Assembly (NCBI RefSeq): GCF_014334335.1
Contig: NZ_JACSEU010000001.1
Coordinates: 1,984,001 to 2,048,000 of the forward strand
From: Treponema sp. Marseille-Q3903
GTDB lineage: Bacteria > Spirochaetota > Spirochaetia > Treponematales > Treponemataceae
Direction: 5' to 3'
DNA: 64,000 nucleotides
How positions within the stretch are numbered: the stretch's first letter is position 1; each line of letters begins with the position of its first letter. This document shows positions 3,446 through 16,780 of this stretch, piece after piece. The notes under the pieces are model-generated. The model was given only the letters and a program-made list of their open reading frames with translations. It was not told where the DNA came from and did not search any database. The translations under genes and the position numbers were made by a program.

Positions 3446-3478
3446 TAGCAACCAAACTTTCCCGTTAAATAAAAAAAA

Positions 3479-3581
3479 GCCGGCAACGTCACTCGCTAAA
3501 GCTCGCTCCCAAGCCGAACGGGGGAGGAACCTAAAACGACCCACTTGTGGCTCGTTTTTTAACGGTTCTCCAGTCGTCGGC
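3479..3581 (-). ncRNA. 5S-like structured element, copy 1
   Basis: On the minus strand a 103-nt segment is closed by GCCGaCGAC and GTTGcCGGC (8 of 9 pairs), directly followed by a T-run. One arm pairs GGAGAACC with GGTTcCTCC (one bulge) and carries a strong inner hairpin AAAACGA-xxx-TCGTTTT. The second arm includes CTCCC/GGGAG around CCGTTCGG. The ends resemble the 5S gene (GCCGG...TTGCCGGC plus T-run), but the middle does not. It could be a decayed 5S copy that kept a three-armed fold, a terminator-like element, or a small RNA. No expression evidence is available. Confidence 0.45.
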
Positions 3582-3776
3582 TTCTACTAACCTACGCTTA
3601 CGCTACCAAGTTTTTGACGCTCGTAAACTCGCTAAAACTCGCGCAGAAGAGCTATCCTTATTCGGCGTCGCCTCACGACGCGAGGCTTTGCCTCGCTCAC
3701 AAAAGTTTGACTGCTCTTCAGCTATAGACAAAACAACACAGTCATTTTTTTGGAAAATCAGAGTTAAATAAAAAAA

Positions 3777-3879
3777 GCCGGCAACGTCACTCGCTAAAGC
3801 TCGCTCCCAAGCCGAACGGGGGAGGAACCTAAAACGACCCACTTGTGGCTCGTTTTTTAACGGTTCTCCAGTCGTCGGC
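3777..3879 (-). ncRNA. 5S-like structured element, copy 2
   Basis: Same 103 nt as the element at 3479-3581 as far as I can read, with the same closing stem, two arms and trailing T-run. Because the two copies do not differ, they give no covariation support for the fold; they only show a recent duplication or homogenisation. Confidence 0.45.
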
Positions 3880-4111
3880 TTCTACTAGCCCGCAGAAGAG
3901 CTATCCGGGTTCGGCTTCTACTAACCTACGCTTACGCTACCAAGTTTTTGACGCTCGTAAACTCGCTAAAGCTCGCGCAGAAGAGCTATCCTTATTCGGC
4001 GTCGCCTCACGACGCGAGGCTTTGCCTCGCTCACAAGAGTTTGACTGCTCTTCAGCTATAGACAAAACAACACAGTCATTTTTTTTGAAAATCAGAGTTA
4101 AATAAAAAAAA

Positions 4112-4221
4112 GCCGGCAACTATCTACTTTCCCGCTAAAGAGCAGTATCATCGACGTAAGAGAGCTTGACTTCCGTGTTCGGAATGGGAACGGGTATTGC
4201 CTCTCCACTATGGTCACCGGC
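4112..4221 (-). rRNA. rrf: 5S ribosomal RNA
   Basis: The 110-nt minus-strand segment starts GCCGGTGACC, ends GTTGCCGGC and contains the conserved CCGAACACGGAAGTCAAGC block of loop B/C. Helix I pairs perfectly at the ends, and a T-run follows immediately, so the 5S helix plus T-run may itself serve as the operon terminator. About 90 nt separate it from the 23S gene. Confidence 0.95.
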
Positions 4222-13019: not shown

Positions 13020-14327
13020 TCAACTGTTTTTCAGTTCGTTGATTTGAGCTTGAAGCTGCAACGTCTTCCTGTTTTGCCTTAAAACCCTCTGTGCCAAAAG
13101 TTTTGAAAGGAATATTCCATAATGAGGATTTTTTCTGATCAAATTGACGAATGAAACCTTCGGTATGCGAATCAATTTACCTTCGTCGGCAGACATAATT
13201 GTTGCAGAGCGGCGATCGTTCAACAAGAACGCCATTTCACCGATAAAAATATCATCTGGCGTGAGAACCGAAATGAGTTTTCCGTTTGCATAAACTCCGT
13301 ATCTTCCAGACACTATAAAGAAAAGATCTGTCGAAGGCTCATTCTGGCTGCAAACAATTTCGTGTTTTTTATATATGATTGTTTTGAACGGAATCATGAT
13401 GCCCGGAACATTGTTTGATTTATTCTTGATATTATTGATATCAAAACTGACTTCATTTCCTTTATCGTTGTAGCGAAGAGCTGAAACAAGTTCTTTTGAC
13501 AAAGCGATTCCCCTTCCATGTGCTTCGGTAACTCCCGGCTTATAAGATGCAATCTGAGCTTTCCAGTCAAATCCATCGCCTTCATCAGTGATTTTAAAAG
13601 TCGATTTTTCATGCCCGATTAAATAATCGATTTTTATTTTTTTATTTATATTTTCAGGAAGATTTCGCTTTTCATTTATCAAGTCTATTATATCGCCGCC
13701 GCTTAAAAGAAAGTCGGTTTTATCTTTGTAAGAAATTCCGCAATTCCCATGTTCAAGCGCATTCGTAAGAAGCTCCATCAAAGTTGCAAGAAGAGCATAA
13801 CGTGTATTTTCGTCTATACGGTTTGAGCAGTAAAGATAATTTACAAGAAAACTTGCATAAAGCCTGATATCTAGAATGTCATTGTCACATATAAAGCTTC
13901 CGATTTCTTCGCTGCCCATTCTGCCCTGCATTCCACGGTTAAACAAAAACTGCTGATTGCTCCACAAAACTCGTAAAAGCCTGTCAAAATTCTGTTTAAA
14001 ACCGGAAACAGTTTCTACAATCAAGATGTTTGGGTTTTTGCGGTTTGAAATTTCTTCAACTTCACGACCGTTTTTTGCGATTGCGATAATTCCGCCATTA
14101 TGAAGCCAAGGGTCAGCATCGATTGCGGAAAGAATTCTGTCACAATCAATATCAGGCGAAGCAAAATCAAGCACTTTGATTTCCGGAAGTTCATAATCTA
14201 TAAGGCTCAAAGCTTCATCTGTATCAGGGCAAAAAATAGCATCAAGCGATTTTGAATATTTGAGCGAGCTTTCTTTTACAACTTCAAGAATTTCCGGATT
14301 AGTCGAAGTAACTAAAACTTTTTTCAT
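13020..14327 (-). CDS. Receiver-like / anti-sigma-type ATPase / cyclic-nucleotide-binding regulator
   Basis: A 435-residue soluble protein with three domains. Residues 1-120 look like a response-regulator receiver (VLVTSTNPEILEVV, candidate phospho-Asp in VLDF). The middle is an HATPase_c domain of the anti-sigma-kinase kind, with an N-box ELLTNALEHGN, G1 DEGDGFDW and a glycine-rich EAHGRGIAL. The last 130 residues form a cyclic-nucleotide-binding barrel with SGRYGVYANGKLI and IGEMAFLLNDRRSATI. No His phosphoacceptor domain or DNA-binding domain is present. It may phosphorylate or sequester a partner in response to a nucleotide, but no partner gene is adjacent. tRNA-Arg lies immediately upstream. 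The domain calls are fairly sure; the pathway is unknown. Confidence 0.75.
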   Translation of the reverse strand: MKKVLVTSTNPEILEVVKESSLKYSKSLDAIFCPDTDEALSLIDYELPEIKVLDFASPDIDCDRILSAIDADPWLHNGGIIAIAKNGREVEEISNRKNPNILIVETVSGFKQNFDRLLRVLWSNQQFLFNRGMQGRMGSEEIGSFICDNDILDIRLYASFLVNYLYCSNRIDENTRYALLATLMELLTNALEHGNCGISYKDKTDFLLSGGDIIDLINEKRNLPENINKKIKIDYLIGHEKSTFKITDEGDGFDWKAQIASYKPGVTEAHGRGIALSKELVSALRYNDKGNEVSFDINNIKNKSNNVPGIMIPFKTIIYKKHEIVCSQNEPSTDLFFIVSGRYGVYANGKLISVLTPDDIFIGEMAFLLNDRRSATIMSADEGKLIRIPKVSFVNLIRKNPHYGIFLSKLLAQRVLRQNRKTLQLQAQINELKNS

Positions 14328-14355
14328 AGATTCCTCTTTATTTTGACATATTTTA

Positions 14356-14429
14356 TGATTCAGATGCGATTTGAACGCACGACCTTCCGCTTAGGAGGCG
14401 GATGCTCTATCCAGCTGAGCTACTGAATC
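14356..14429 (-). tRNA. tRNA-Arg, anticodon CCT
   Basis: A complete cloverleaf: acceptor GATTCAG/CTGAATC, D arm GCTC/GAGC, anticodon arm TCCGC/GCGGA around CTCCTAA (anticodon CCT, reads AGG), and T arm GTGCG-TTCAAAT-CGCAT. CCA is not encoded. It is the last member of a 168-bp series: its 5' end lies exactly 168 bp after the 5' end of the last tRNA-like repeat. Confidence 0.95.
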
Positions 14430-15269
14430 TAATTATAAAAATAATGTCGCATCTGAATCATAAACTTCCAGCTTTCAGATGCGATTTGAACGCACACCTT
14501 CCGGTTAGGTTATACGATAGCAAATGCGTTAAAAAACTTTCGCAGAAAGTTTTAGCATTTACGAGTCCAGTGCTCTATCCAGCTGAGCTACTGAATCTAA
14601 TTATAAAAATAATGTCGCATCTGAATCATAAACTTCCAACTTTCAGATGCGATTTGAACGCACACCTTCCGGTTAGGTTATACGATAGCAAATGCGTTAA
14701 AAAACTTTCGCAGAAAGTTTTAGCATTTACGAGTCCAGTGCTCTATCCAGCTGAGCTACTGAATCTAATTATAAAAATAATGTCGCATCTGAATCATAAA
14801 CTTCCAACTTTCAGATGCGATTTGAACGCACACCTTCCGGTTAGGTTATACGATAGCAAATGCGTTAAAAAACTTTCGCAGAAAGTTTTAGCATTTACGA
14901 GTCCAGTGCTCTATCCAGCTGAGCTACTGAATCTAATTATAAAAATAATGTCGCATCTGAATCATAAACTTCCAACTTTCAGATGCGATTTGAACGCACA
15001 CCTTCTGGTTAGGTTATACGATAGCAAATGCGTTAAAAAACTTTCGCAGAAAGTTTTAGCATTTACGAGTCCAGTGCTCTATCCAGCTGAGCTACTGAAT
15101 CTAATTATAAAAATAATGTCGCATCTGAATCATAAGCTTCCAGCTTTCAGATGCGATTTGAACGCACACCTTCTGGTTAGGTTATACGATAGCAAATGCG
15201 TTAAAAAACTTTCGCAGAAAGTTTTAGCATTTACGAGTCCAGTGCTCTATCCAGCTGAGCTACTGAATC
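14430..15269 (-). repeat. Array of five 168-bp tRNA-like repeats
   Basis: Five units have 5' ends at 15269, 15101, 14933, 14765 and 14597, then the true tRNA-Arg starts at 14429. In each unit the first 126 nt (15144-15269, 14976-15101, 14808-14933, 14640-14765, 14472-14597) copy the tRNA-Arg acceptor 5' strand, D arm and T arm. The anticodon arm is replaced by about 70 nt. That insert is a 4-bp stem (CTGG with CCGG or CCAG) enclosing a long hairpin built from GTAAATGC/GCATTTGC and AAAACTTTC-TGC-GAAAGTTTT. The acceptor 3' strand reads CTGAAAG, so two of seven pairs are lost. The 42-nt remainder contains TTCAGATGCG, which pairs perfectly with CGCATCTGAA and so competes with the T and acceptor strands. 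The plus-strand open frame across the array is a by-product of the 168-bp (56-codon) period. Confidence 0.9.
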
Positions 15270-15285
15270 TGATTTACTTTGCAGC

Positions 15286-16122
15286 TTAGAATATGTAATA
15301 CTGTCTTGGTTTTGCGAGTCCTGCAAACCCGGCTTTTACAGTATCAATATTCTCTATCACCTTAGTATAATGACAAAGGTACATTTTTTTTCGTATTTCA
15401 GCGGGAAATGAACACAATTCTTCGTAAGAAGCGTGAACGCCGCGTGAATATCCCGAAATATCACAATCGTGAAAAATTGTCTCAATATTATATTTTTCAA
15501 GGAGGAATTTCAACTGCGGTTCATTGAACTGTGTATCTGCCGTGAATAAAATCCTATCATCGATAATCACACCATAAGACAGCATAGAGTCTCGCAACGA
15601 ATTTTTATGCGTTGTAACATGCCTCGTCCTAAACAATTTTAAATTTATTGAACCGACATTCGCTTCATGCATTTCAAAAGGCTTTTTCCGAATCTGTTTG
15701 ATCGGCAACTGATTGAAATAATCATCGAGCGTCATCTTACCTTCTTCAGAATATTGAATGCCGCCTCGCAGAGATTCATTCCAGAGCAACTTTTTAAGCT
15801 TATCCGTGATAACCAGATTTATCTTACGCCTTGCAATATATTTTCCGACAAGAGCCATCTCCTCTGCCCCACCGATATGGTCTGCATGAGGATGTGTAAA
15901 CAAAACATTTTCTATATCTTTTATATCTGTATTACACCATTTTTCCATCACGTAAGAGCAAAGCGTTCCGCAGTCAATAAGAAGATGGTCTTTGCCTTTT
16001 GCAATAAAAAGATTCGTCTGGAACACGTCTTTTTCAAAAGCATTGCCTGTCCCAATAAAAAATAGAGAAAGTTCACCGTTCGTTGTAAATTCAAGATTTG
16101 AATTAAATGGTTTAATTGTCAT
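15286..16122 (-). CDS. Metallo-beta-lactamase-fold hydrolase
   Basis: The ATG at 16122 (MTIKPFNSNLEF) is preferred because the longer frame from 16170 runs into the upstream HAD gene; no ribosome site is clear for either. The protein has the zinc motif THPHADHIGG, a downstream His in RTRHVTTH, an Asp in LFTADTQF and a late His in FHDCD, the order seen in MBL hydrolases of the RNase Z / PhnP-like group. The substrate is not predictable; phosphodiesterase or RNA-processing activity are both possible. It lies 11 nt after the HAD phosphatase gene and ends 17 nt before the tRNA-like array, so the array may be co-transcribed with it. Confidence 0.8.
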   Translation of the reverse strand: MTIKPFNSNLEFTTNGELSLFFIGTGNAFEKDVFQTNLFIAKGKDHLLIDCGTLCSYVMEKWCNTDIKDIENVLFTHPHADHIGGAEEMALVGKYIARRKINLVITDKLKKLLWNESLRGGIQYSEEGKMTLDDYFNQLPIKQIRKKPFEMHEANVGSINLKLFRTRHVTTHKNSLRDSMLSYGVIIDDRILFTADTQFNEPQLKFLLEKYNIETIFHDCDISGYSRGVHASYEELCSFPAEIRKKMYLCHYTKVIENIDTVKAGFAGLAKPRQYYIF

Positions 16123-16132
16123 TTGGACGCTA

Positions 16133-16780
16133 TTATAGCACATTTTGAGATAGTTGGTACACTTCTTCAACTCCGTTTAAAACAATTCCGCCCATCCCGA
16201 GTTCCAAAGGCACTGCGATATCGATATCGTAACGGTCACCAACGGCAAGGCAGTCTTCTGCCTTTTCGCAAAGAATTTTTAAAGCTTCCATGAACGGCTC
16301 AACGGCAGGTTTCGACTTAAAACATGTATCTAACCCTACAATTTTTGGAAAAAAATCAGAGATGCCGATCGCTTGAAGAGTTTTTCTCGCCGGAAAAACA
16401 GGATTATTTGTTACAGCTATAAGTTTAAAATGTTGATTTAAGATTTTCATTTCATCGATAAGTTTTTTATCAACGCTTAAAAAGTCTGACGGTTCCAGTA
16501 GCTTTCGACGCCATTCTACGCTTTGTTCGATTGGAACGCCGAATGCAAGCAAAGTGTTTCCAAGGCTGATTTTGCTCCCGCCATGCTCCTCAGCAAATTT
16601 TTGTCTATAATCTGCAACCATCTTTCGCGCTTGAGAGGCAGTAATTCCACGAAGTTTTGCAAATTGACGAACTTGGCAATCTACTTGCTCGAACGCATAA
16701 GCGTCATTTGTATATAAAGTTGAATCAATATCAAAAATAATCGCTTTTAGGTTTTGCGGGATTTTATAAATTTTCATCAT
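16133..16780 (-). CDS. HAD-family phosphatase
   Basis: A 215-residue haloacid-dehalogenase-type hydrolase with motif I DIDSTLY, motif II VTNNP, a motif III Lys in FKSKP and motif IV GDRYDIDI. The cap is of the helical C1 kind, and the overall pattern is that of pyrimidine 5'-nucleotidase / phosphoglycolate-phosphatase relatives. The substrate is not predictable from sequence. AAAGG lies just before two adjacent ATGs. It precedes the MBL gene by 11 nt, so the two probably form one unit. Confidence 0.8.
   Translation of the reverse strand: MMKIYKIPQNLKAIIFDIDSTLYTNDAYAFEQVDCQVRQFAKLRGITASQARKMVADYRQKFAEEHGGSKISLGNTLLAFGVPIEQSVEWRRKLLEPSDFLSVDKKLIDEMKILNQHFKLIAVTNNPVFPARKTLQAIGISDFFPKIVGLDTCFKSKPAVEPFMEALKILCEKAEDCLAVGDRYDIDIAVPLELGMGGIVLNGVEEVYQLSQNVL

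Follow-up and report, generated by a model that had tools for sequence, protein, structure and literature searches.

Rickettsia palindromic elements interrupt genes, the double-hairpin or repetitive hairpin elements of mitochondrial DNA have spread through the genome with no known transposase, and the attC sites of integrons carry the complementary core sites RYYYAAC and GTTRRRY. REP sequences with their RAYT (Y1) transposases are described as dispersed short palindromes that are imperfect, having a mismatch inside and a conserved 5′ tag, and the Rickettsia elements are mentioned alongside them (PMC3733652). The hairpin described here, which we call P3, was found in an array of tRNA-like units in Treponema sp. 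Marseille-Q3903. It shares with REP sequences the form of a dispersed imperfect palindrome, an internal mismatch, a short 5′ tag (GTA) and a frequent position downstream of genes. It differs in that the tag is mostly followed by A (GTAA) and does not read GTAG in the P3 sequences listed, in its longer and variable inner stem, and in the copies of the target 3′ end that go with it.

Like the Rickettsia elements, P3 is a small palindromic element inserted inside genes; unlike them, it was found only in spirochaetes in an exact-pattern search of named genomes, combines a variable sequence with conserved pairing, and occurs in tandem arrays with copies of the target 3′ end. With the mitochondrial elements it has in common that hairpins have spread through a genome with no known transposase, whereas P3 is bacterial, has a conserved U/UUAAC loop and is accompanied by inverted and direct copies of its target. 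An attC site resembles P3 in its folded strand, conserved motifs, extrahelical bases and highly variable end, but the TTAAC of P3 is unpaired opposite a single base and not paired with GTT. What is novel is the P3 family, which at several places comes with copies of the ends of its targets. Its pairing is kept, by selection or by the mode of movement, while the letters change, and it lies at gene ends together with direct and inverted duplicates of these; this points to an unrecognised mobile system in Treponema of guts and rumens.

The array before tRNA-Arg(CCT)

The window, i.e. the whole stretch of DNA that was analysed, comprises 64,000 nucleotides. Five tandem units of 168 bp lie on its minus strand at 14431-15270, upstream, in the sense of transcription, of tRNA-Arg(CCT), which keeps the exact 168-nt spacing of the array. 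The earlier note had described five exact-period units with the true tRNA on the same spacing, and this was confirmed by TRF (period 168, match 99%), ARAGORN and Rfam. The features of the locus are as follows.

13020-14327, minus strand: gene for a protein with HATPase_c_2 and cNMP-binding domains; follows the tRNA directly on the downstream side; syntenic in relatives (Pfam; synteny)
14352-14369, minus strand: 3′ terminus of the true tRNA with its trailer, counterpart of the inverted copies (sequence)
14356-14429, minus strand: true tRNA-Arg(CCT) (ARAGORN; Rfam tRNA model, 68.1 bits)
14431-14598, minus strand: unit 5, adjoining the true tRNA (period and sequence comparison)
14447-14464, minus strand: antisense copy of the true tRNA 3′ end and trailer in unit 5 (sequence)
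14516-14562, minus strand: P3 hairpin of unit 5 (model R2, 63.5 bits)
14599-14766, minus strand: unit 4 (period and sequence comparison)
14684-14730, minus strand: P3 hairpin of unit 4 (model R2, 63.5 bits)
14767-14934, minus strand: unit 3 (period and sequence comparison)
14852-14898, minus strand: P3 hairpin of unit 3 (model R2, 63.5 bits)
14935-15102, minus strand: unit 2 (period and sequence comparison)
15020-15066, minus strand: P3 hairpin of unit 2 (model R2, 63.5 bits)
15103-15270, minus strand: unit 1, first in transcription order, probable pseudo-copy of tRNA-Arg with P3 insert (period and sequence comparison)
15188-15234, minus strand: P3 hairpin of unit 1 (model R2, 63.5 bits)
14615-14632, 14783-14800, 14951-14968 and 15119-15136 (the last 17/18), minus strand: equivalent antisense copies in the other units (sequence)
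15286-16170, minus strand: metallo-beta-lactamase-fold gene, directly upstream of the array, syntenic in relatives (Pfam; tblastn synteny)

Each unit begins with the 5′ part of the tRNA including the D arm. The inserted P3 hairpin comes next, then the 3′ side of the anticodon arm and the T arm with some of the acceptor strand behind it, and the unit closes with the true tRNA's 3′ end and trailer copied in inverted orientation. This copy matches at 18 of 18 positions in four units and at 17 of 18 in one. The 64-kb window holds a single case of an exact inverted pair of at least 17 nt with arms within about 200 nt, and this is the pair starting at 14353 and 14447. Only 3 of 168 positions vary among the five units. 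The change between CCAG (two units) and CCGG (three units), to which the earlier note had drawn attention as keeping the stem paired, is real; being just one of these three positions and a single substitution, it does not amount to covariation, and the proposed CTGG/CCRG pairing was not common to other genomes in a comparison of 17 unit types. A 295-codon open frame runs through the array on the plus strand (14402-15289), as expected of an artefact where the period of 168 is a multiple of three. The metallo-beta-lactamase-fold gene at 15286-16170 matches the Pfam family Anti-Pycsar_Apyc1 with 112.8 bits (cut-off 50).

In relatives, tRNA-Arg lies between the same two flanking genes according to tblastn synteny. 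Related units in other treponemes, which the earlier note had looked to for support, do exist: of 196 genomes searched in the genus, at least 12 have them at the tRNA-Arg locus. One relative (L022) has both flanking genes, with the tRNA after the upstream gene and no unit, and thus represents a fully flanked empty site. Three others (L020, L023, L036) have the upstream gene and no unit between it and the tRNA, while in L024 a decayed 3′ half of a unit remains. The tRNA-Arg locus, the one place compared, hence has the empty site that is looked for in mobile palindromic repeats. With empty (L022) and remnant (L024) sites among the relatives, the arrays were gained, lost or both.

Structure and distribution of the P3 hairpin

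The P3 insert consists of two paired stretches that are separated by a conserved asymmetric internal loop (U/UUAAC), and its inner stem is flanked by an A-run and a T-run. The hairpin of about 17 pairs in the earlier note is consequently real, albeit as two stretches split by a loop instead of one continuous helix. In 28 P3 sequences taken by hand, the outer helix was paired in 100% of cells and the whole structure in 97.8%, a share that 0 of 500 shuffles attained. Compensatory changes were strong, with double-sided changes in 77 cells compared to 16.3 in shuffles (0/500), while slid pairing registers were only 29-62% paired. In two of the 28, a letter at the end is wrong (the first in one, the last in the other); both lie outside the paired columns, so that the pair counts stand, whereas the seemingly invariant end letters of the alignment are not reliable.

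A second, model-fitted alignment of 85 distinct rows, which by its construction leans towards the structure, had 97.2% of cells paired, a value reached by 0 of 500 shuffles, and 228 double changes compared to 46.4 in shuffles; one of five measures, further pair types, was matched by 31 of 500 shuffles. G-U pairs made up 5 of 1216 paired cells in this alignment, and the model to which it was fitted had few G-U pairs itself. P3 is a genuinely conserved structure. Such strong structural conservation would also fit a role as RNA or in protein binding.

A search of the genus with one unit returned sister arrays as well as matches to the insert alone. The conserved-letter pattern of P3 was present in 37 of the 196 genomes and its reversed control in none. 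The covariance model R1 had matches in 77 of the 196 genomes, with up to 29 in one (29 being the number scored); R1 was built with mis-registered pairs, and what these counts reflect is conservation of sequence together with pairs that are in part wrong. With the corrected model R2, the P3 copies of the window score 63.5 bits, compared to 54.3 with R1, from which the genome counts stem. Using an exact pattern on named genomes, we obtained 36 stretches, two of which share one record and among which some genomes recur; 33 were from Treponema and 3 from Spirochaetales or Spirochaetaceae. The source genome has three further good P3 copies besides the array. P3 is thus dispersed, palindromic and located at unrelated sites, as are small mobile palindromic repeats in the broad sense. 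It also occurs outside tRNAs, which does not agree with the proposal in the earlier note that the insert is a replacement anticodon arm.

The exact long-stem pattern was found in 0 viral contigs and the short-stem pattern in three. The array unit had no match in annotated phage or plasmid collections, and a phage or plasmid origin of the unit was rejected on these grounds. A description of the P3 repeat was not found in open PMC text. For human microbiomes, PMC8040213 reports candidate structured RNAs by the thousands, including some from Treponema and 250 that are palindromic, and an unnamed earlier record of P3 among these candidates is possible.

P3 sites and copies of gene ends

P3 was located after gdhA, GGGtGRT and flagellin genes and at yebC (genes identified by Pfam in one representative each), and before start codons. 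Its orientation is mixed, as it lies with the gene at gdhA and GGGtGRT and against it at flagellin and yebC. At tRNA-Glu, P3 runs against the tRNA strand in L019 (ARAGORN) and, by resemblance, in L057 and L174, with P3 copies of opposite orientation nearby, and along the strand in L182. The mixed orientation, together with the small number of wobble pairs, hints at pairing within DNA rather than RNA, and for this reason we favour folded DNA as the form that would be recognised. From genome to genome, P3 is found again at the same genes, and a conserved function at these genes could be another reason for this.

Two kinds of places can be told apart. At type A places, a second hairpin with a UAAA-like loop often precedes P3, and at some genes (gdhA, GGGtGRT and others) a copy of the 3′ end of the neighbouring gene follows it. 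Type B places have a shorter P3 and another hairpin, often just before the ribosome-binding site and start codon. In type B elements (L162-L170, L153, L154), the stem of the second hairpin varies between copies; these elements often end CTTACACAGGAG before a start codon or, in the other orientation, give a stop codon.

We compared 28 type A and 13 type B rows, hand-chosen from R2 matches; duplicates, tRNA arrays, matches lacking a left flank and a small number of other rows were left out. In 15 of the 28 type A rows and in 1 of the 13 type B rows, a direct copy of the gene end outscored all of its 20 shuffles (10 and 0, respectively, at a strict cut). Going by resemblance, eight of the 15 are at gdhA and five at GGGtGRT. 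As 13 of the 15 rows thus belong to two genes, the evidence that target copying is general comes from few genes, to which tRNA-Arg, tRNA-Glu and 5S can be added. On inspection by eye, the flagellin array and several loci of gdhA and GGGtGRT showed inverted pieces of the gene end. In the systematic test of the same 28 and 13 rows, the inverted copy did not stand out in most, and the case for it therefore rests on the window, the tRNA units and some loci read by eye.

Two further cases were found in the source genome, the first of them in the window.

3472-4110, minus strand: tandem pair of copies downstream of 5S rRNA, both of which contain a P3-like hairpin and repeat the 3′ end of 5S (repeats, sequence)
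3527-3568 and 3825-3866, plus strand: P3-like hairpins in the 5S repeats (R2 28.7 bits, E 0.0019, a weak match)

The 5S-downstream repeats (region 3464-4120) are about 298-334 bp long and contain a 13-nt inverted piece of 5S that is 92% complementary. The other case, at L182 2008-2700 (G000:C1, ~875 kb), is a weaker array. Six P3-like hairpins come after tRNA-Glu(CTC), with a second hairpin in front of every one of them. The 3′ end of the tRNA recurs twice among these hairpins and once more, decayed, at the end.

Origin of the array and candidates for movement

We consider it likely that the array consists of pseudogene copies of tRNA-Arg(CCU) that carry a small palindromic, probably mobile element and were amplified in tandem. 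This reading is backed by the dispersal of P3, the conservation of its pairing, its presence at unrelated genes and in both orientations, and the empty locus in a relative. P3 would have inserted in the anticodon loop of a tRNA-Arg(CCU) gene and disabled this gene copy, and the one disrupted copy would have become five by unequal recombination, as suggested by the 3 variable positions in 168. To judge from its distribution, P3 is most likely mobile, presumably as a small non-autonomous element recognised as a folded DNA strand. A further step may leave, at several targets, one direct and one inverted copy of the target 3′ end. The units are probably passengers, transcribed together with the upstream gene and the true tRNA, and play no tRNA-like part themselves.

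The direct copy of the target 3′ end and the inverted piece that occur with P3 at several targets are left unexplained by this main reading. They might indicate, and here we are tentative, that P3 is a new class of spirochaete hairpin mobile DNA that picks up the end of the gene it targets, as a direct copy of the 3′ end and an inverted one of part of it. The inverted copy would then be a possible guide or primer for an enzyme, and arrays at tRNA, 5S rRNA and housekeeping genes would arise through serial events.

It is rather unlikely that P3 is instead an RNA or DNA element that selection keeps at gene ends, such as a terminator, a 3′ end stabiliser or a protein-binding site, which spread by recombination and of which the array supplies several before tRNA-Arg. 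The strong covariation, the A-run and T-run beside the inner stem, the repeated presence at the same gene ends, and the T-arm/antisense hairpin with its following T-rich stretch all suit such an element. The mixed orientation (with gdhA and GGGtGRT, against flagellin and yebC) does not, nor does the presence of P3 inside pseudo-tRNA copies and before start codons. In addition, a simple consensus scan of 14200-15600 for a G+C-rich stem followed by a T run gave 0 terminator-like sites, compared to 0.9 expected in shuffles, so that the terminator-like tail read in the earlier note was not borne out.

That the units are functional tRNA-like RNAs, acting as a decoy, a mimic or a switch between tRNA fold and hairpin, we regard as improbable. 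They pass the Rfam tRNA model with 30.1-33.3 bits (gathering 29), compared to 68.1 for the true tRNA, and in those of the window the T stem is intact and 5 of 7 acceptor pairs remain. Of the further findings that accord with the earlier note, the hairpin of CGCATCTGAA and TTCAGATGCG, 16 nt apart, is present in the units, a unit plus its tail folds more stably than shuffles (z -4.18, 0/200), and an inverted piece of the T arm of at least 8 nt follows the unit in 12 of 17 unit types. The tRNA-like fold itself is not kept. ARAGORN called the true tRNA in the region and none of the five units. A functional tRNA has a 7-bp acceptor stem and an intact anticodon loop, whereas the window units lack two of the seven acceptor pairs and have an interrupted loop. 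Among 17 distinct unit types from 12 genomes, the number of acceptor pairs ranged from 0 to 6 and was never 7, and the T stem was complete in 7 types (the window's included) and had fewer than five pairs in 10. The search expression behind this count required the D arm and the 5′ T strand and left out units that did not fit, and D-arm conservation among the types is hence by construction. In G136, G111 and G003, a unit follows the true tRNA and is without an acceptor 5′ strand of its own. As computed without tertiary contacts or modifications, the tRNA-like fold of a window unit with P3 has -21.6 kcal/mol compared to -33.5 for the best fold, i.e. about 12 kcal/mol worse, while the true tRNA cloverleaf (-24.0) is within 0.6 kcal/mol of its best fold (-24.6). 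The tRNA fold around P3 is not what is kept; the pairing of P3 is. Arrays of tRNA-like units that pass a tRNA model can thus be repeat debris, which matters for the annotation of tRNAs and small RNAs.

Sites at tRNA genes and at the 3′ ends of other genes, and copies of these ends further downstream, are also what repeated integration of a larger integrative element with the tRNA as attachment site, later deleted to its ends, would leave. We hold this to be very improbable, given that the units lie upstream of the true tRNA here, that P3 itself sits inside the anticodon loop, and that no integrase was recognised by eye among the 40 largest clusters of 419 open reading frames from 119 partly redundant loci. 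A Y-RNA-like (YrlA) identity with binding by Ro protein, another idea of the earlier note, can practically be dismissed: the YrlA matches (Rfam RF02553; best 36.2 bits, E 1.2e-4, in the relative L110, and up to 23.7 bits in the window) are far under the gathering score of 69 and combine the T arm of one unit with the D arm of its neighbour, in an order that any tandem array of tRNA copies would provide, and a Ro-dependent system is refuted by TROVE/Ro being found in 0 of 196 genomes, with the control genome Deinobacterium positive.

Returning to P3 as a mobile element, we searched for an enzyme that might move it. Y1_Tnp was present in 28 of 77 genomes with P3 and 33 of 119 others (P 0.21), RVT_1 in 25 and 30 (P 0.33), and the integron integrase, over its cut-off in 57 of 196 genomes, in 21 and 36 (P 0.75); none of the three was associated with P3. 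The source genome has no match to Y1_Tnp (PF01797) or RVT_1 at E 0.001. R2 at E 0.01 gave 0 P3 matches in 12 loci around longer Y1 (RAYT-like) genes, chosen out of about 100 Y1 matches listed. P3 thereby also differs from REP/RAYT (PMC3733652), and both RAYT/Y1 and reverse transcriptase were rejected as movers on these data. The source genome encodes a full integron integrase at G000:C1:681914-682861 (487 bits, cut-off 265). None of its 15 P3 matches (E up to 5) is within 100 kb of this gene, and an attC identity was rejected on this, the unpaired TTAAC and the missing association. As no candidate enzyme tracks P3, the mechanism of spread is inferred from distribution. The recurrent frames beside P3 in the neighbour survey were host genes and, at four places (L037, L040, L053 and L201), a PD-(D/E)XK (Rpn-like) gene, tested against Pfam PDDEXK_2 in L037; leaving these genes aside, no transposase recurring beside P3 was recognised. 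We judge the position of the Rpn-like genes to be due to chance, since such genes are presumably common in these Treponema genomes.
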